From NCBI GenBank assembly GCA_012862575.1, contig BLSF01000030.1, forward strand, positions 458,896 through 522,895: a stretch of 64,000 nucleotides of DNA, in the 5' to 3' direction. How positions within the stretch are numbered: position 1 is the stretch's first letter; the number at the start of each line of letters is the position of its first letter. This document shows positions 52,702 to 63,831 of this stretch, piece by piece. The position numbers were made by a program, and so were the translations under genes. The stretch comes from Parietichytrium sp. I65-24A (taxonomy: Eukaryota > Sar > Bigyra > Thraustochytrida > Thraustochytriidae). The notes below the pieces were generated by a model. The model did not search any database. It was not told where the DNA came from and saw only the letters and a program-made list of their open reading frames with translations.

Positions 52702-55417
52702 TCAGTCCCTCCTGTTCGGCGACAGCAGCAACCACCTGGCACACTTGCCTGACCAAGTCACACTCGCATTTCCTTATGATCTCTCACGTTTACATTCACG
52801 TCCGGACGCTTTGCTTTCGTCACTCATGAGTGTACGGCCCACTTGAAATACAGTTGCTGAGCCAAAACGCGAGCACGGCTACGATGATTAGTGAGTGTTA
52901 TGTGTGCGCGGTGTGTATACGCGTGTGTGTGTGTGCATGCGAGAACCGGACGTAAAACGACCCCAAATTGATCGCTCCTGGTTCTCCTAGTACTAGAAGA
53001 ATCTCTAGGTGAAAAAAATGAAGCGGGTTTGTTCATGCAGAACTCCAGAAAATGTTCTGTGGTCAGATTAGAGTTGTTGCTAGGTATGTTGCTATGTTGG
53101 GATGTTAAGAAAGCAACTGTGTTGCGTTGAGGGAGCTGGGAGCTGAGAGCTGGGTCAGAATCGCGACCATTTTCGTGGATCAATGGACTTAGATACCAGT
53201 ATTGATCGCCGCTCGTTCTTTAGTAATGCCCTTGCACTATCATTTTTATCATATCCAAGAACTCTTTGGTTCGTAGTTCTTGGGTTCTACTACTAGAGTA
53301 TAGTTCACTGCAAGCAAGCAAAAGCAGTGGTTGACTGTGAGTCTGAGCCACTGACGGTTCGCTGCCAGCGCGATTTTCGAGCAACATTCGCGACTTCGCC
53401 AAAGAAATTCGCGTCTCGAATTGGTTTTTGCAAGCGCAACTACGAACCTTTGACATTACCAAGTCCGACAGGCACCACGGGAAATAGAAAAGGAGTTCTT
53501 GTTAGACATATTGTACGGACGTACATGCCCGCCACAATATTTTTGTAGCTACAAACTCGGTATCAATCGCCATGTCTTGGGCCTGAAGGAGGGGAGGACA
53601 GTACTTTTTACGCAGACCTGCCCCTTCAAAAGCAGATGCGAGACTTTGAGTGGTGAAATTACCAAGCAAGAAGAATCCGAGGTACTTTTTACGTTGTCTA
53701 ATGTGAAAAAGTCCCGAAAGTCTTGGCAAAAGACTATTATCCGGTGTGTTTGTTGTTCGCCCAAAACAGATCAACATTAAAAGTTATCGGTAGAACCATA
53801 ATTTGATTCCTCTGGCGCGTTAGATAAGTGCTCAGCTGTGACAATGTTTAGTAGTTCAAGAAACGCTCAGCGAATGTGAAAGAGTGAAAAAGTGAAAGAA
53901 AAAATGGAGCAACTTGAAACCCACTCGTGAAACGGTGAAATGTGGAGAAGATGATGACATCTTCAATCTAAAAATGTAAATGATAAAAGAAAGCCCTAAA
54001 GGTTGGCGTCACCACCACTGTCAAGATGTGTGTTCATGTACCTGACAGACTAAGTGAGCGCTAGCTAGAGTACCTGATACCTTCTTGCTCTCCTTTAGTT
54101 ACTTTCGTGCGCACGCGAATAAGGTTGAGTTGTGCACAGTTGTGCTAAGGAGGGGGAGCCATAACTCGGCAAGGGCCTAGCCTAGCACGCCGCTCTAGCC
54201 CCATGCAGTGCATGCAAGTTGACTTACGTGTTGCATATGCGCTAACCTGACACCTCCTTGACCACTAAGTGGCCAGCTCACAAAGTTAAAGTTAAGTAAG
54301 CTGGCCATCCGAGTGCACACGTCGCACTCCCTATGAAACGAATGGAGATGAATGGAGCGGGTGAAACTGAATTATTCTAACTTGCCTAAATCTATTCGAT
54401 GGGCACAAGGCGACTAAGGCGACCAGGACGGCCGCGAGTTAGCCACCGTTCAAGCTGGTTCGTTCCACAACACCTGAATTCTGAATTTCTGGTTCTCAGC
54501 ATTCTCAGCCGAGCGCAAGGTCGGTCATCCAAGGAGGAACACGGCGCAAATCTCGGCAAGAGAAAAGCGCCACAGTCTTCACTTTGTTTGCACTTTCCAC
54601 ATCTTCCACTGGCTGGCCGTCCTACCGACAGTAATAACCACGCCACTAACAATACCACCGTCAACCACTCACATCCAGTTGCAAAGGTGTGTGCGTGTGC
54701 ACTACCTTCCCGCCGCTCCTAAGCTTCTTCTACTCGGTTCTATGACTACAGAGCTCTAGTGCTAGCACCGGTATGCTAAGGCTTCTTACTTACTTTCCCC
54801 CTGGGCTCCGTCTTGGCGCTAGTGCACCTATCCCTAAGTGGTAGCACTCCTGGCTGGAGGGAATCTAGCTAGTAGATCCAGAGTGACTCTGTACTACTGG
54901 CACTAGTACTCAACGCCCCAACTCGGCTTTGTTATGCTATCACACCATAGAGCTCGTACTAAGATGAGGGCCTTGATCCCTGGGCGATTAGCTACTAGCT
55001 AGCACTGCAGGAGGAGAGCCACTCGACTCCTATACATTTTTTCGAAGCAGTGGGTGTGGGCTGTGAGGGGGTGAGCTTATTCGAGCTTATGTGAGTGAGC
55101 TTAGAAGGGAGAAAGGAGAAAGAAAGAAGGAAAGCAAAAGGGATGGCAAGAGAGTGCCAAAGAAAGAAGGTGAAGAGACGAGAACAAGGAGGGCGTCCGT
55201 CCAAGAAGCCTTTCCAAGTGCCCGTTCTGAATTCACAGACATACTCTGATGAACAGCTGCTGCAAGGTGTGGCGCATGTGAGGGATCGCGGCATCACACA
55301 GCGAGCGGCAAAGCAAAGCAAAACATAGGAAAGCAAAGCATAGGAAAGGAATCAGTGCTTGGAAAGCGCGTGGGGTGGTTCTTGGGTCCTTGCTTGGTTG
55401 CTCTGGCGGGGAAGGAA
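52702..55417. other. Intergenic region, about 2.7 kb, no gene established
   Basis: It may contain a 5' exon of the broken coiled-coil locus (an ATG on the minus strand near 52830 begins MSDESKASG). GTACTTTTTACG occurs twice (near 53601 and 53682). Small frames elsewhere lack coding character. The RCC1-like promoter lies in the last part. Confidence 0.5.
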
Positions 55418-58400
55418 ATGCGGGGCGCGGGACTGCTTTGCGCAGCGTTGGGAGTGGCGTGCGCGATTGCGGACGAGGGGAGTGCATTGCGCGACGTGAT
55501 CATTTGGGGAAACCGCAACAACGGAGGCTCGTTCCAGCTCAATATTGGCACTGTGCCTATATCGACAACTTCGAGTGTAGACGCGTTTGGTGCGGTGGAT
55601 GGAAACGGAGTTGTCCAGGTGTGGGGGGACTCCAGGGAGGTGTACAAATTTGCTGACGCCTTGCATCCCGTTGTGTCCTCGGGGAAGCTCAAGGCCCGTG
55701 CCATCGCCGGTGGGAATGCACGGTTTAGTGTCATCAGGGAAGATGGATCTGTTCTTGCTTGGAATTCCAAAGGTATCATCAAAGCCACCACGTTTTCGGA
55801 TCCCGTTGCAGAGATCGCAGTTCTTCAAGAGAATGACGTGGCTCTTACGGATGTGAACACCCTTATTTTGTTTAATGCGACCGTTTCCGCAGAAATATCC
55901 CGCGTCGAGAACGTGAAGGCCTATCACGCAAACAAATTTGCCGTGTTTTGCGAGTTAAACAGCGGCTCGTATGCTGCAATCGGCGACAGCTCGAGAGGAG
56001 GAGACATTTCCGGTGTTAATCTGAGCTCCAGAGGGTCCGTGCGCAGTGTCACGCACAATGACTGGGCCTTTGCTGCCTTCATGAATGACGGGTCTGTTGT
56101 GACATGGGGGGACAGCAGCAGAGGAGGTGACAGCAGCACAATTGACTTTGGCTTTGGCGGAGGCGTGCGCGAAGTCGTCTGCAACACCGAGGCTTTTGCG
56201 GTCGTCACGATAGACGGCAGCGTGAAGACGTGGGGGCTCGCGTCCAGCGGAGGGGAGAGCTCCATGATCGACTTCGGCCTTGGTGGAGGGGCGAAGAAAG
56301 TCGTTGGGACTGCCACAGCCTTCGCCGTCCTAAGGGAGAACGGTGCGGTTGTGTCGTGGGGCAACAGCGTGGCAGGTGGGGACAGTACGACCGTAGATTT
56401 GTCAAGCGGTGTGAAAGACGTTGTCGCGAGTGATCAAGTGTTCTCAGCCTTGAAGTTCGATGGGTCGATCATAACCTGGGGAAACAAGAGCCCGCTATTT
56501 CCAGGTGACGTGTTCATAGAGCCTCAGGGGAGCTTGGGGACAATCAAATCGATTTTCAGCACGCGCAAAGGCGGGTTTGCCGCGATCACATCCGACTTGA
56601 GTGTCACGACCTGGGGGCACTCAGGAGCAGGCGGGAATTCCACTAATGTTGATTTCAGTTCTGGAGGTGGGGTGCGCACAATTCTTTCAAACGATGACGC
56701 CTTCTCCGCTATCAAGTACGACGGGACCGTGGAGTTTTGGGGCGGCGCATCATCAGCAGGACAACAATTCAAACCCCTTGTTGAACCTGTCGGAGTTACG
56801 CAAGTTGTCTTTGTTGGAGATAACGAAAAAGGAGCTGTTGCAGCCCTAAACATCGACGGATCCGTGTCTACCTGGGGGAATGCGAAAAGCGGCGGCCGAA
56901 GCGGCCACATCAACTTTTCCTCGGGAGGAGGGGTCAAGGCTCTGTACAACACAAGAAACCAGTTTGCGGCGTTGAAGCATGACGGCTCGGTGGTAACTTG
57001 GGGTCTTGCAACGTATCGACAAGTGTCTGAAACTGGATTTACAACGATCATTGCGACCACCGGAGCATTTGCTGCAATGAAAGAAAACGGCGACTTGACA
57101 GGCTGGAGCGAGAATTATATTCTTCAACTTGAAGGCGTCAGATCAATGTGCGCAAACGACAGGTCTGTTGCTGTCATCATGAAAGATGGCAATAAGATAC
57201 AGAGCTGGGACGCTTTGACCGGCATGTTTAATTACGAGGGTTATGGTGGTGACAGCACAGGAATATTCCCCGAAGGCGGAGTGAAGGAAATTGTTCACAC
57301 TCGTAATGCTTTTGCCGCGCTAACCTACAGCGGAGACGTTGCCGCATGGGGTATGTCCCCCTACGATGCAGGCTACAGCGGTGATATTGACTTTTCTTCT
57401 GGCGGCGGAGCAGCCAAAATTTTTGCGTCCAACCTCGCGTTTGCAGCATTGTTATACGATGGCTCGGTGAAGATCTGGGGCTGCTTTATATACTGGTCGA
57501 ACTCGTGTCGTGTCACCTACACAGTTTCCTCCTCGCTCTATGGGGGCGTGAAAGACATCATTTCAAATCCCAACGCTTTCGCTATTTTGTTCAACGACGG
57601 GTCCGTGAAAGCCCGAGGGGCATCTGATTGGGGAGGCTCAAGCTCAGTTGTTACTTTCTCGTCACCAGTGGAAAATGTTTACGCATCAGAATCCTCGTTT
57701 GCTGCTTTAATGCAGGATGGATCAGTGGTTACTTGGGGAGGACTTGAAATTCCTGGCGCGGATGACTATTCTTTGGGCGGTGGCGTTAAAACTATCGTTG
57801 GCGGGAGACTGAACGAGTTTGCATCAATACAAGAGGATGGGAGTGTGCTTTCCTGGGGGAGAAAAGGCTCTCCATTTGAGACCCCATTCGAAGAAATCAC
57901 CTTTCCCAGACAAGTCGATACGATTTACAGCGACTACCAGCTTGGTGTCTTCGTTGCTGTGTTGAAGGAGACCCCATCGCCATCGAAAGCACCAACAACC
58001 ATGGTACCTACATCAACACCAACGGAACAACCAACTATGGCGCCGACACCAACGGCACCAACACCAACGGCAGAGGACACAACTACGGCACCAACACCAA
58101 CGGCAGAGGACACAACTACGGCACCGACACCATTGACTCCAGGAACAGTGGCAAGTGAAACAGACTACACCCTTGTGCTCGCCCTGTCTTTTGCAGGCAT
58201 CTTCTTGTTTGGAGCTCTCCTGGGAGCATACAAACGGAGAGATATGTTCAAAAGAGGCGTGAAGAGTGCCATTGTCTCTGTCTTCAGCGATTCTGATTCT
58301 GACTCCGACGGAGGAAGCAGTGGGAGAGCTGTCACGGAGCGACATGATAACCGCAGGCAGGTTTCAAGTGTACCCGTGGCATTTGCAGTTGCAGATGTGC

Positions 58401-58471
58401 CTAACCAAGACGAAGACTCAACTACCTACAAAATAGCACCCGCGGTCACCAACATTCAGTACTACGGCTAA
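55418..58471 (+). CDS. Large RCC1-like repeat protein, type I membrane receptor-like
   Basis: 1017 residues from the ATG at 55418 (GGAAATG), which gives a clean signal peptide (RGAGLLCAALGVACAIA); an upstream frame starts only at GTG. The ectodomain (about 20-860) is built of about 15 degenerate units of roughly 45-55 residues with the pattern AFAAL-xxDGSVxTWG-xxxxGGxSxxxDFSSGGGV-xxIxxTxx, an RCC1/beta-propeller-like repeat, enough for about two propellers. A Thr/Pro/Ala mucin-like stalk (APTPTAEDTTTAPTPT) follows, then a TM helix (about 916-938) and a 79-residue tail with an Asp-Ser run (SDSDSDSDGG). Single exon despite 3 kb. Probably cell-surface adhesion or sensing; ligand unknown. Confidence 0.78.
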   Translation: MRGAGLLCAALGVACAIADEGSALRDVIIWGNRNNGGSFQLNIGTVPISTTSSVDAFGAVDGNGVVQVWGDSREVYKFADALHPVVSSGKLKARAIAGGNARFSVIREDGSVLAWNSKGIIKATTFSDPVAEIAVLQENDVALTDVNTLILFNATVSAEISRVENVKAYHANKFAVFCELNSGSYAAIGDSSRGGDISGVNLSSRGSVRSVTHNDWAFAAFMNDGSVVTWGDSSRGGDSSTIDFGFGGGVREVVCNTEAFAVVTIDGSVKTWGLASSGGESSMIDFGLGGGAKKVVGTATAFAVLRENGAVVSWGNSVAGGDSTTVDLSSGVKDVVASDQVFSALKFDGSIITWGNKSPLFPGDVFIEPQGSLGTIKSIFSTRKGGFAAITSDLSVTTWGHSGAGGNSTNVDFSSGGGVRTILSNDDAFSAIKYDGTVEFWGGASSAGQQFKPLVEPVGVTQVVFVGDNEKGAVAALNIDGSVSTWGNAKSGGRSGHINFSSGGGVKALYNTRNQFAALKHDGSVVTWGLATYRQVSETGFTTIIATTGAFAAMKENGDLTGWSENYILQLEGVRSMCANDRSVAVIMKDGNKIQSWDALTGMFNYEGYGGDSTGIFPEGGVKEIVHTRNAFAALTYSGDVAAWGMSPYDAGYSGDIDFSSGGGAAKIFASNLAFAALLYDGSVKIWGCFIYWSNSCRVTYTVSSSLYGGVKDIISNPNAFAILFNDGSVKARGASDWGGSSSVVTFSSPVENVYASESSFAALMQDGSVVTWGGLEIPGADDYSLGGGVKTIVGGRLNEFASIQEDGSVLSWGRKGSPFETPFEEITFPRQVDTIYSDYQLGVFVAVLKETPSPSKAPTTMVPTSTPTEQPTMAPTPTAPTPTAEDTTTAPTPTAEDTTTAPTPLTPGTVASETDYTLVLALSFAGIFLFGALLGAYKRRDMFKRGVKSAIVSVFSDSDSDSDGGSSGRAVTERHDNRRQVSSVPVAFAVADVPNQDEDSTTYKIAPAVTNIQYYG
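58010..58140 (+). repeat. Coding Thr-Pro-Ala stalk repeat
   Basis: Repeated ACACCAACGGCA-type 12-bp units, including a 33-bp block present twice in tandem (about 58060-58125), encode the APTPTAEDTT stalk of the RCC1-like receptor. In-frame, so copy number could change stalk length. Confidence 0.85.
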
Positions 58472-59325
58472 ACGCTCAAGTGCTTGCTCCTCACGGTGTG
58501 ATCGACCAAATTCTAAACTCAAATCTAGGACATTGAATTCACAAGTCCCAAGAGTTCAAAGTCTACAACTTCAGATGAAGTCCTGCTTGCAAGTCAAACT
58601 TCCGGCCCTGCGACCAATCCGTAGTAGGACGTTTCCCTGACGCTTCAACCTCAGACTTAGCAGAGGGCTCTGACTTTTTTCCAAAAGAGACCTTTCTGGT
58701 ACTTTACTAAACCAATACTTTTGGCGCTTTTGTCAAGACCCTGTCTCTGCGCCTCAAGATAAACACCTACGTTGTTCAAATCAGATTTTTTTTACAAAAA
58801 GAAATTTTTCTCTAGCTAGAGCGGTCCGTCGCGTTGCTCTGAACCCTCACCTCTTGCATGACACGCGCGCACCTTTTGGCGTCTGGCTTATCACCTGAGC
58901 GTCGACTTGCACAGCCTCTCTGCGATATTGTCAAGAAGACTCAATAGTCGAAACGCACTCTCTGTCCAGATGCCAGTTCCAAATTTCACTTACTTGCACC
59001 TGTCGAGTCAATTTGTAACTATGGAGATTGCAAAACTGACAGTGAAAACGCTGTCTGCACAAGGCACTCAGATCGGAAGAGGTGTGGGATATTGTGGGAT
59101 CGCATTTTTTGGTCTCAAAATAATAACCTAACCTAACATTTGAGAGACACTATCACTTGCTCACCCAGTTGAGTTGAACGGAGAGCTGTTCCGCCACCGA
59201 CTTGCTACCGGCTACCCGGTAGTGCTTGGTGGTTGCGAGAGTTGCGAGGCAAGTCTCTATTATACGGCTTACCATAGTAATACCTACGATCTACCTGCGA
59301 ACTCATAAGGAAAGAGGGCAGAAGA
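58472..59325. other. Intergenic upstream of the LRR gene
   Basis: About 850 bp between the RCC1-like stop and the proposed LRR-gene start, same strand. No coding frame is convincing; the LRR promoter should lie here. Confidence 0.5.
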
Positions 59326-62300
59326 ATGAGGAGCGAAGCAGAACATCACCTGGCGTGACTTTGACTTTGGTTTATAGAAAAATGCATTACTTGCTCATTT
59401 TTACTTTGACACTGATTTTTGGCGAAACAAGTTTAGTAGTTTCTTTCTCGTTCTTTGGTGACTGACGGCTTTTTTGTAATGAAATTTAGTCTTTTTGGAA
59501 ACTACATTGGTGTTGCAGGAGCATTGGCGATCGGTCGCACGTTGAAGAAGAACACTGCGCTGACTTTCTTGGAGTACGTGTGACTTTGACACCGGTTTGG
59601 AGATAATGTTTATTACCTTGCTCAACTTTCTCAGACTTTGTGGCTGACGGTTTCATGTCATGAAATAGTCTTGAAGACAATCATATTGGCAATGAGGGAG
59701 CATCAGCGATCGCTTTCGCGCTGGAGAAGAACACTGCGCTGACTTCGTTGAGGTACGTATGACTTTGAAACCGGTTTGGTGGTAATGTTTATTACCTTGC
59801 TAAACTTTCTCAGACTTTGTGGCTGACGATTTCATATCTATTTGTAATGAAATAGTCTTGGGCGGAATAATAACATTGGCGCTGAAGGAGCATCATCGAT
59901 TGGTCGCGCGTTGGAGAAGAACACTGCGCTGACTAAGTTGGAGTACGTGTGACTTTGACACCGGTTTGGCGACACCGTTTGGTTTCGTGCTAAACTTTCT
60001 CGGACTTGGTGGCTGACGACTTCATGTCTTTTTGTAATGAAATAGTCTTTCTTATAATTCTATTGGCGCTGAAGGAGCATCAGCGATCGGTCGCGCGTTG
60101 GAGAAGAACACTGCGCTGACTTTCTTGATGTATGTGTGACTTTGGCACCGGTTTGGTGAAAAATAGGAGTGTCGCTGTACTTTCTCCGACTGGGTGTCTG
60201 ACGACTTTATGTCATTTTGTAATGAAATAGTCTTTTTTGGAATGCCATTGGCGATGAAGGAGCATCAGCGATCGGTCGCGCGTTGGAGAAGAACACTGCG
60301 CTGACTAAGTTGGAGTACGTGTGACTTTGACACCGGTTTGGCGACACCGTTTGGTTTCGTGCTTAACTTTCTCGGACTTGGTGGCTGACGACTTCATGTC
60401 TTTTTGTAATGAAATAGTCTTCAATCTAATCAAATTGGTGGTGAAGGAGCATCAGCGATCGGTCGCGCGTTGGAGAAGAACACTGTGCTGACTACATTGC
60501 AGTACGTGTGACTTTGACACCGCTATGGTGAAAAAAGGTTCTTTGCTAAACATTCTCGGACTTGGTGGCTGACGACTTCATGTCTTTTTGTAATGAACTA
60601 GTCTTTGTTGGAATGGTATTGATGATGAAGGAGCATCAGCGATCGGTCGCGCGTTGGAGAAGAACACTTCGCTGACCTCGTTGGAGTACGTGTGAAGTTG
60701 ACACCGGTTTGGTGAAAAAGTTTTGTGGCGTGCTAAACATTCTGGTTCTAAGTGCCTGACGGTTTTGAGTCTTTGTAAACAGTTGTATGTTTGGAAACCC
60801 GAGAATAGACGCAATGCTAGAGCGAAATAAAGACATTGCAAAGCGCCGTGAGGAGGAGCAAAAAAAGGAAGCGGAGAAACTCAGGAAGGAAGAAGAAAGA
60901 GAAAGGAAGCTTGCGCTTGAAGTGAAGAGACGCAAAAATCAAGCGGAGAAACGCAAAAGGCAAGCGGAGAGGCGCAGATGGAAAGCGGAGGGACCAGTGC
61001 CCTGGACGGAGCCTGTCAAGCTCTTCGCGCGATTGGCAAGCTTGAACGCTGATCTTGCGAAGCGACGCGAGTCCGCAAAGGACGGAGTGGAGTTGCCCAA
61101 AACTGCTGTTGCGCTGGAGTGGTGCGCTGCCGAGTTTACGCGGGACCCTACAGACGCATTTCAGAGTTTTATTACCGCGGTGCGTTCTGCGAATGAGAGC
61201 CAAGCAGCCTTCGAGTCGCTCCAGGAGGAGGTGAAGAGCAACATTGAACGGAAACTAGCTCGAAATGAAGCACGCGAGAAGGTTCGAGAAAAGGTCTCCC
61301 TGGTTCTTGAGGAAAGGCCAAATGCAATACTCATCAATGTCGAAAAAGAGTTGCAGCACTGGACGTCAAATCTGACTGACTGTGAGAATGGCCCTGTAAA
61401 GATTAAGAGCAGAGCAGAACTCTCGAGATTTAAAATCGAAAGCTTTCGAGAGGTTTACTCTAGCACGATGGCTCAGCTTCGAGATGCCTGCGAGTCTCTT
61501 CGAAAGTGGAAGGACCGCCACGACTCCCGAGAATGGCGAGCCAAATCCGAGCAAGCGCTGGTACAGCTCAAACGAGCCGCATCACAAGGCGGTAATAGGG
61601 ATGCCTTTGAAGTCGTCTCAAGTGCAGACGGGATGGAGGAAGTACAGCAGCCCTTGAAGAAAGCAGTCGATGCGTTACAAGACGAGTACACTTTCTTGGA
61701 GGAGGATCACCCCGAGGTCGACTTTCCTGAAGTAGAGATTGAAAGAGTTTTGAGGGCTCTCCGCTTCTTCGTCCAAGACGAAATGCCCGTCTTTCTTGCA
61801 TGGGTCCGTGAGCAAGTGAGTACGTTTGATGCTTTACAGGTTTTATACGCGGCAGGAAGCGAAGAACCGTCTACTCAAGCCTTCGAGACACTTGCAGACA
61901 ACGTACATGGCCTTGAGGATGATATTGCTGAGTGTGAGTTTGCGTCAGGGAGGCTTGAGAAGCAAATTCTACGCGGAAAAGACCAAGATGGAACCTTGGC
62001 ATCCGAAAAACAGAGGCTGGAGGCCAAGTCGGAAAACTTGCGTCAAAACTTGAGAGGTCTCTCCCGTCGTTTAGTGGCAGAGCGTGCGCGGTTGCTGTGT
62101 GCTGCTGAGCTCCACTATCCAGAGCTCTTGGCCAGCTCCGATTGGACTCGAGTTCTTGGGCTGGTAGATTTGCCTGGTGCGGAATTGCTGCAAAAGAGCG
62201 GTGTGCTGCTGGAAGGCTTTCGAGCGCGTGATTTTAATATTGTGAGGACGCTGGGCTCTCCGAGCTCTGGAAGACAGGTCGACCTGGTCCAGTCCCCCGA

Positions 62301-63831
62301 TGAACAGGTGACAGATGGATTTCCAGCGGCAGTAACCCCCAAAGTGCTCAAATCTTTTCATCTTGCCAACGCTGATGCCCAAAAACACTTTCTGCGGCAG
62401 TGCGCCGTGCTTACTTCGCTGCGAGACGCAAACGTGGCCCGAGTGGAAAGTGTATTCCTGGATCGCGAAGCGAACCTTGGGTGCATTCTCATGCCCTTCT
62501 ACGAGAACGGTGACCTAGATGCGTGGCTCAAGTCGACTCCACCGACGGCAAGGGAGATACCGAGGTGCAAGTCGCTAGCCATGGATATACTTGAAGCTTT
62601 AAGCAGGATTCATTCGGCGGGTCACGTTCATTGCGACTTGAAGCCACACAACGTATTCCTCACGCGGTCATTCCGCGCCGTTCTTGGAGACTTTGACGGG
62701 TTGCAGAAGGATGGTCGGACGCTTACAACAAACCTCCAAGTAACACTGGACTATCTCGCTCCGGAGCTAAGGGACGGGTCGCAACACAGGGTCACTCCGG
62801 CTGTGGACATGTACGCCTATGGAAGAATTCTGAAGAAGTTACTGGATGGGGTCACAGAAGAGAGTAGTGGGTGCAGTGCCCTGATTTCAAGTTTAATGAG
62901 TGATGATCCTCTCGCGCGACCGACAGCAAACGAAGTTTTGCAAGACGATTTCTTTACTGAAAAGCCTGCTGAGACCCGTGACTGTTCTGCGTGCTGGGAT
63001 ACGTGTCTTCAGCAGAACTCGATCGCATGTGGTAGTGGCTCGCATTGCTTGTGCAAGGCATGTCTAACAAACCTTGTGAGAAGCGGTGTCAACCCCGAAA
63101 CAATTACAATGGACGGCACTATGCAGTGTTGCATGCCTGAGTGCCAAGCACTGCTCTCATCTAGCTCGATCGCGTCCTTGTTGCCCGAATCCGAATGGGG
63201 GATGCTTCTCAAGGTGGCTGCAGATAAACAGGAGGCTCGTCTCCAGCTCGATTTTGCAAAGACGCTAAAGGAGGAGCTCAAGAAGAGTATTGACGACCAG
63301 TCCTTGCTTTTGCACCGAAACAAAATTATTAATGAGATCCTTACTTTGCAGTGCCCCTCATGCAAGAAGGCATTCGTAGACTTTGACGCGTGTTTTGCAG
63401 TGCAGTGCACTGATGAACTGGGAAATGGTTGCAAGACTTACTTTTGCGCGTGGTGCCTTGCAAATTGTGGACCAAACAGCGAGCCTGCACACGACCATGT
63501 AGCGAACTGCCCCTCGAATCGATCAAGGGACGTAGATGTGCACTTTGGCGATCTCGCGGAGCTCGACAAGGAGATGAAACGCCTGCGCGCCAAGAGACTC
63601 GGAGAGTATTGGGCCGCCGAGATCTCCGGTCGCGCGAGCAAGGAAGTGGAAAATGGTCTCAAGTCTATTCTACTTGGGTTTCGTGACTCGATAGATTTCG
63701 AGTTTCTACCCACTCATCTTGCGGAGTTTTTTCGGAGGTCGAGAAAAAGAAAAGCAAAATCGCAGAGATGGAAAGGTGGCAGGACCAAGGCAATTAAAAA
63801 AAATCGCCGTCGGGGTCGGGGTCAGGAATGA
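59326..63831 (+). CDS. LRR / coiled-coil / kinase-like / RING-Rcat protein, nine exons
   Basis: Exons: 59326-59354 (start, tentative), 59490-59573, 59669-59752, 59856-59942, 60046-60129, 60231-60314, 60418-60501, 60602-60685, 60783-63831; 1222 residues, all eight introns phase 2 and GT-AG. Residues about 10-207 are seven LRRs of the NLRC3/ribonuclease-inhibitor type (NxIGxEGASAIGRALEKNTALT). A Lys/Glu/Arg coiled coil follows (about 220-275), then helices to about 690. The kinase-like domain (about 691-931) has a candidate Lys727, HCDLKPHN (Asp825), DFD instead of DFG (843-845), APE and ARPTANEVL. RING Cys/His at 941-994; a Rcat-like finger at 1064-1116 has C-x4-C with candidate catalytic Cys1077. 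A basic tail ends the protein. I infer an innate-sensor-like ubiquitin ligase. Confidence 0.8.
59490..60685 (+). repeat. Tandem array of single-LRR exons and matching introns
   Basis: Seven exon-intron units with a period of 179-190 bp. Exons are 84 bp (28 codons) except the third, 87 bp. Each ends two bases into a codon (TTG-GA, TTG-AG, TTG-AT or TTG-CA) before GTACGTG or a near variant, and each begins T-CTT after an acceptor that is usually TGTAATGAAATAG. Introns following exons 2-7 are 95, 103, 103, 101, 103 and 100 bp. The last two-thirds of exons 5-8 share the same 42-bp block (GAAGGAGCATCAG... to AAGAACACT). Variation is concentrated at the exon ends, in the codons around xLxLxxNxIGx. 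Confidence 0.93.

Follow-up and report, generated by a model that had tools for sequence, protein, structure and literature searches.

Our analysis indicates that the gene studied in the window, i.e., the whole 64,000-nucleotide stretch of DNA analysed here, probably belongs to a large family of receptors, predicted to be cytosolic and to act in recognition, whose cassettes of one leucine-rich repeat (LRR) each have been shuffled under diversifying selection. The LRR region of this gene is composed of such cassettes, which recur across the genome in scrambled order, precede two kinds of output module and diverge at a few codons at the exon junctions. The genome was examined as a single assembly of 42.5 Mb in 172 contigs.

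The 3′ part of the window contains seven cassette exons with one LRR per exon, six of 84 bp and one of 87 bp, followed by an output exon. The features localized are listed below; splicing at the cassette sites, in the window and in the rest of the family, is predicted from the sequence.

59326..59354, + strand: exon 1 (ATG...) of the original prediction; doubtful, resembles 5′-flank and intron sequence of paralogues
59490..59573, + strand: LRR cassette exon 1, 84 bp, phase 2-2: LFGNYIGVAGALAIGRTLKKNTALTFL
59574..59668, + strand: phase-2 intron after cassette 1, 95 bp, GTACGT...AATAG
59669..59752, + strand: LRR cassette exon 2, 84 bp
59753..59855, + strand: phase-2 intron after cassette 2, 103 bp
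59856..59942, + strand: LRR cassette exon 3, 87 bp, 29 residues
59943..60045, + strand: phase-2 intron after cassette 3, 103 bp
60046..60129, + strand: LRR cassette exon 4, 84 bp
60130..60230, + strand: phase-2 intron after cassette 4, 101 bp
60231..60314, + strand: LRR cassette exon 5, 84 bp
60315..60417, + strand: phase-2 intron after cassette 5, 103 bp
60418..60501, + strand: LRR cassette exon 6, 84 bp
60502..60601, + strand: phase-2 intron after cassette 6, 100 bp
60602..60685, + strand: LRR cassette exon 7, 84 bp
60686..60782, + strand: phase-2 intron linking the array to the output exon, 97 bp
60783..63831, + strand: output exon; protein kinase (PF00069, E 2.1e-24) and Cys/His-rich C-terminal region

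These coordinates confirm the original prediction of seven exons that each encode one LRR of 28 or 29 residues. Each of the seven cassettes is preceded by AG and followed by GT at an identical phase-2 place, and the seven introns, all GT-AG, 95-103 bp long and none divisible by three, cut the same codon after its second base. The phase matching that had been predicted for all introns, flanks included, thereby holds for the seven introns located 3′ of the cassettes but not for the 5′-flanking intron and exon 1. Each intron, if retained, leads to a stop at the fourth codon. The proposal that cassettes can be gained or lost in frame was borne out in silico: omission of any single cassette leaves one open frame to 63831 (7/7, in a run that included the doubtful exon 1). 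The introns 59943-60045 and 60315-60417 are 99% identical. The repeat, at 28-29 residues, is of the ribonuclease-inhibitor (RI) type (LRR_6, PF13516, E 7.4e-42), and the 59 solved sequences matched include ribonuclease inhibitor and NLR chains. Upstream of the array, at 55253-58471 of the window, there is a 1072-aa open frame rich in 'GSVVTWG'-like repeats; it also contains a Thr/Pro-rich stretch and, close to the C-terminus, a hydrophobic segment, and may encode a repeat-rich surface protein.

The dense intron set had been regarded as special to one receptor, a view that has to be abandoned since the exon-plus-intron unit recurs genome-wide. The 185-bp unit has at least 305 DNA matches in the genome, and the intron 60315-60417, used as the sole query, has at least 201, those listed being spread over more than 24 contigs. 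In the loci fetched, we identified 46 arrays of at least three cassettes, with 464 cassettes in all; both figures are lower bounds, and the array counts exclude about a dozen LRR clusters of the genome (counted by eye). After dropping nine cassettes at locus edges or with N, both splice sites were found at the exact phase-2 place in 423 of the 455 usable cassettes, and in 407 of the 428 that scored above 50. For an earlier set of 325 cassettes, the exact place was found in 302, versus 115 of 23,989 (0.5%) shifted registers. The placement in the family is not due to chance. Intron retention would lead to a translation stop for 319 of the 329 introns considered, which come from a filtered set of 399 cassettes (score above 50, a GT donor and both sites matching the 28-residue register), 329 with a downstream intron and 269 with both introns. 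Stop-bearing cassettes number 4 of 464, a count biased low since the scoring penalises stops. The 87-bp length was found twice in the family, one case being window cassette 3. Array size ranges from 3 cassettes, the cut-off, to 24; the largest array probably represents two neighbouring genes. Spreading through spliced RNA (retroposition) is argued against by the lack of fused exons, with none among the 288 neighbour spacings below 400 bp in a 333-cassette set. At locus L013 (C17:183600-190000), a second cassette subtype with a GASSLAEALK-like core is interspersed with the main one; a CACAG acceptor is present in 3/4 and a GTGAGT or GTAAGT donor in 3/4. Elsewhere, on C66, an open frame of 5583 aa repeatedly matches parts of the PfaA model (polyketide- or fatty-acid-synthase-like); the search of the genome with this model gave no match above cut-off. 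A search with one 18S pattern based on a labyrinthulid primer likewise gave no match.

Two kinds of output module were localized behind these arrays. A kinase-type exon lies directly behind 9 of the 46 arrays, and Roc-COR-TIR genes lie behind five arrays of the main cassette kind (C12, C75, C35, C107 and C4):

Arrays before a kinase-type exon: C2; C8, 4-6 kb; C29, 89-92 kb; C30 (the window); C88 (three arrays); C140
Array before a kinase-type exon, with the exon match in two pieces: C45, 115-117 kb
Roc-COR-TIR loci: C12 (L012); C75 (L023); C35 (L035); C107 (L036); C4 (L034); C10 (L037)

The arrays are predicted, from the sequence context, to be spliced to these kinase or Roc-COR-TIR frames. 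Roc and COR-A are found in open frames directly behind the arrays on C12, C75, C35 and C107. On C4, with fewer than three cassettes called, the ROCO match is split over two frames, and the part scanned contains COR-A and TIR; on C10 the Roc-COR-TIR gene lies behind a different LRR subtype. Across the genome, 37 of 38 TIR_2 matches are above the Pfam cut-off. On C73, a single cassette lies ahead of a kinase-type exon cut by the contig end, and for the C13 paralogue, about 40% identical, no cassettes were found within the stretch fetched. For 32 of the 46 arrays, the stretch fetched held neither module as a full match; three of these (C5 at 949 kb, C59 and C91) are at contig ends within ~300 bp. 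The arrays of L009, L015 and L020 share a similar terminal exon that contains a stop and, by eye, looks like the beginning of the L012 ROCO exon. Beyond the last exon, tblastn identified pieces of a ROCO gene and of the kinase exon in L015 and L042, and of the kinase exon alone in L020; these remnants 3′ of the L015, L020 and L042 arrays suggest past module replacement.

The output exon of the window gene is open over 1012 codons. Its first part is predicted to be mostly helical by a low-confidence model (mean pLDDT 54). In its Cys/His-rich tail, 14 Cys and 2 His columns are invariant among nine family members including the window copy. The tail gave no Pfam match, including to the RING and IBR domains that make up RING-between-RING (RING1-IBR-RING2) E3 ligases, and IBR_2 appeared as a weak match below its cut-off (E 0.01) in one of three members scanned. 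At E<=1, the Pfam search of the window output exon found no Roc, COR, NACHT or NB-ARC. When the window copy is compared with seven paralogous copies, the output exon shows a dN/dS of 0.18-0.44, typical of purifying selection. Locus L031 (C140:1-9600) has two kinase-type output exons, with a dN/dS of 1.03 at ~3% divergence.

Cassettes occur in scrambled order when loci are compared. For 126 of 329 cassettes, the nearest relative lay in the same array, and for 203 in a different one; an earlier same-locus figure, 0.48 of 232, was based on 12-kb bins and a smaller set. Nearest relatives were colinear for only 1 of 249 adjacent cassette pairs (3 of 172 in a smaller set). Mixing between output classes is incomplete: for 224 of the 329 nearest relatives in other arrays, the output class, assigned by hand per contig, was the same (permutation mean 174.6; 1% of 2000 as high). 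When all seven window units were compared with 407 others, including units 2, 3 and 7, which are outside the 329-cassette set, five were closest to a unit of another array. Units 3 and 5 are mutually closest, with 94.6% identity. The closest unit outside the array depends on the method for unit 4 (C125 or C12) and for unit 6 (C107 or C45). Two neighbouring paralogues on C88 have downstream exons that are 95% identical over 2788 bp, and their arrays correspond only partly, one of the array counts being a lower bound (~430 bp beside the array were not fetched).

Sequence variation within the cassettes focuses on residues 2, 3, 5, 8 and 26, with diversities of 0.72-0.92 (0.01-0.46 for the other 22 residues), and on the intron-split codon. 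According to the known LRR fold, residue 26, the split codon and residues 2, 3 and 5 would sit in the concave strand, before and after the splice junction, with residue 8 just beyond the strand. The hypervariable residues are thus predicted to lie in the concave strand or directly beside it. Among 25 independent pairs whose two introns each differ by less than 10%, the hypervariable nucleotides differ by 40% (171/425), the other exon nucleotides by 7% (123/1675) and the introns by 6% (296/4974). The divergence of the hypervariable codons is thus about sevenfold that of the introns, the latter being biased low by the choice of pairs on intron similarity. Between loci, the bootstrap mean differences are 0.60 for the first and second positions of the five codons, 0.29 for introns and 0.19 for four-fold sites of other codons. 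The NG86 pN/pS inside the hypervariable codons is 0.96 (0.89-1.03) for between-locus pairs, both terms being saturated; the 30 closest pairs give 1.44 (1.03-2.11), whereas a set of 52 gives 1.19 (0.97-1.47). Because NG86 is saturated and the close-pair values are mixed, a dN/dS above 1 rests mainly on the comparison with introns and neighbouring codons. Positive selection on the hypervariable residues is likely.

Part of this change may have been acquired in blocks. In the strictest matched set of 23 pairs, of which 14 carry two or more changed residues, the interleaved codons L1/N4/I6/G7 diverged at 4/47 silent sites, compared with 28/155 in a laxer set of 47 pairs and 0.27 in random pairs; for N4 alone, the values were 1/12, 11/38 and 0.40, respectively. 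A near match elsewhere was found for 11 of 28 hypervariable blocks, against a baseline of 91 of 399. Since silent-site divergence is low in the strictest pairs and intermediate in the laxer ones, the import of short blocks may contribute to hypervariable change, beside codon-by-codon change.

The 5′ end of the window gene differs from that of its relatives. The other members examined begin with a short exon 1, in most cases followed by an LRR-like exon 2, with phase-2 donors as read from the alignment; neither exon was found upstream of the window array. The sequence at 59295-59356 aligns with the 5′ flank of paralogue L006 with a score of 53 (300 mononucleotide shuffles: mean 26, best 47). 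Its comparison with the L002 5′ flank gave a score of 28, with no alignment above the shuffles (mean 27); from ~59347, the window aligns with the L002 intron that precedes the first cassette. A deletion of exons 1 and 2 would account for the window 5′ sequence, and this copy may have lost them. A translation start at 59326 is possible, because this ATG has the phase that the first cassette requires; it also comes with a GT donor.

We propose that the sensor of these receptors would be assembled from one-LRR cassettes, each an exon plus a phase-2 intron of ~100 bp, of a kind shared genome-wide. Since the intron would split a codon in the middle of the beta strand, each concave strand would combine the last residues of one cassette with the first residues of the following one, and the gain, loss or swap of a cassette would alter two strands with the frame intact. 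New arrays would arise at the DNA level, where the similarity of introns and exon cores would allow unequal crossing-over and a degree of conversion; diversifying selection, probably through changing non-self ligands, would fix new faces, and binding at the LRR face would switch the kinase or GTPase/TIR output. As an extension that we consider distinctly improbable, arrays without a recognised output domain would act as a donor library, whose cassettes or hypervariable codons would be copied into a small number of kinase and Roc-COR-TIR receptor genes, in the germline or somatically. If true, such copying would amount to an anticipatory, adaptive-like receptor repertoire in a single-celled organism.

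The most serious alternative concerns the window copy itself, which could well be a decaying or silent 5′-truncated member of a family that is functional elsewhere; we rate this somewhat below an even chance. The missing exons 1 and 2, and the likeness of the predicted exon 1 to 5′-flank and intron sequence of paralogues, are what such decay would leave, and the arrays of L009, L015 and L020 that end in a stop exon, with ROCO pieces beyond it in L015 and L042, point the same way. Nevertheless, no stop interrupts the seven cassettes or the 1012-codon output exon, the dN/dS of that exon is low (0.18-0.44), and an in-phase ATG with a GT donor is present at 59326. The family could also serve recognition other than immunity, such as self/non-self or mating-type recognition or the sensing of symbionts or prey, to which we assign a modest chance. 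Any hypervariable recognition system is expected to produce the same pattern. TIR and Roc-COR outputs are often tied to defence, and their presence beside sister arrays speaks against a non-immune role, though not decisively.

Ordinary tandem exon duplication by unequal crossing-over, with phase symmetry simply inherited and diversity without a recognition role, would explain the 126 of 329 cassettes whose nearest relative is in their own array, the local position of 23 of the 30 closest independent cassette pairs and the resemblance of window units 3 and 5 (94.6%) to an internal duplication. It is, however, an improbable account of the family, given the 203 nearest relatives that sit in other arrays and the approximately sevenfold excess of divergence at hypervariable codons over introns in flank-matched pairs. 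The number and spread of the intron matches (at least 201, over more than 24 contigs among those listed) would also suit a mobile introner-like element that inserts into genes; this is very unlikely, as the matches listed sit, by eye, in LRR clusters or arrays, save C54:57-159 at a contig end. Finally, 16 of the 46 arrays are within 10 kb of a contig end, against ~8% expected by arithmetic from 172 contigs and 42.5 Mb, as an assembly artefact of repeated sequence would predict. The contigs C5, C45, C59, C91 and C155 end within ~300 bp of an LRR array, so the assembly breaks there; since two telomere patterns searched in the genome gave no match, the arrays close to contig ends are not designated subtelomeric here. 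Misassembly may affect some arrays, and the array counts are lower bounds. As an explanation of the whole pattern, an artefact is hardly credible: the cassettes are nearly all distinct (387 of 399 27-mers), and random errors would have hit the conserved codons and splice sites as well. We favor the reading of the locus as one of many receptors with shuffled cassettes under diversifying selection.

In lampreys and hagfish, the LRR modules of the VLRs are combined into variable binding faces and assembled somatically. The window family resembles this system in its modular LRRs in predicted variable faces; its arrays are known from one genome assembly. The VLR system of jawless vertebrates is mentioned in the sections of PMC6642158 considered here. 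According to these sections, in most human NOD/NLRC genes each LRR exon codes for a single RI-type repeat of 28 residues, its border lies at a fixed point of the beta sheet, and exon skipping preserves the frame. The window family likewise has single-repeat exons of the RI type, 28 residues long, whose border falls in a beta strand, the strand position being taken from the known LRR fold and the register from the cassette sequences. Unlike the NOD/NLRC genes, which are NACHT receptors, the window output exon has no NACHT, and the same sections of PMC6642158 describe no genome-wide cassette exchange.

According to excerpts of PMC11378527, brown-algal LRR-ROCO genes consist of 72-bp phase-2 exons with one 23-residue LRR each and show exon shuffling, alternative splicing, LRR-only loci with shuffling exons and four positively selected sites on the concave face; LRR-ROC-COR is the only ROCO arrangement reported there. 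The likeness to brown-algal receptors that had been pointed out is supported by one-LRR phase-2 exons, shuffling and the Roc-COR genes behind sister arrays. The window family differs in its 84/87-bp exons and 28-residue RI-type repeat, in preceding a kinase/Cys-rich exon as well, and in the TIR of its ROCO genes. The signalling side had been described as unlike that of Ectocarpus; this applies to the window gene, which has a kinase and lacks the Roc-COR tandem that defines the brown-algal LRR-ROCO, but not to the sister arrays that directly precede Roc-COR-TIR genes. In Tetrahymena, as reported in the parts of PMC6564038 used here, very many 90-bp LRR exons have phase-2 introns, some fused to a protein kinase; most species have more than 1,000 LRR genes, and shuffling by ectopic recombination was proposed, with a LINE-like element taking part. 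Many equal-length phase-2 LRR exons, with no or almost no fused exons, are common to both systems, the exons being exactly 90 bp in Tetrahymena and 84/87 bp in the window family.

On the portions of these three sources compared, the design is documented more widely than the original prediction stated (PMC11378527, PMC6564038, PMC6642158), and the window family, with its predicted exon borders, shares it with the brown-algal, Tetrahymena and NOD/NLRC genes. Because its exon length is unlike that of brown algae and Tetrahymena, and the window gene lacks ROC-COR and NACHT, it represents a variant of a known design. Among the papers listed by a search of the open-licence literature for LRR in thraustochytrids or labyrinthulomycetes and for ROCO with TIR or LRR, none deals with such cassettes, judging by titles and abstract openings. 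In the compared portions of the literature, we encountered neither a comparable number of 84-bp RI-type cassettes nor a single cassette kind with two output modules behind it, nor the matched-pair contrast. The family looks like a further case in which a single frame-neutral exon holds the LRR and the splice junction falls within the binding strand. Here, one cassette kind stands before two signalling outputs, and near-identical neighbours differ most at a few predicted surface residues. In this cassette family, the source of receptor diversity, i.e., crossing-over, conversion, selection or splicing, would be directly testable.
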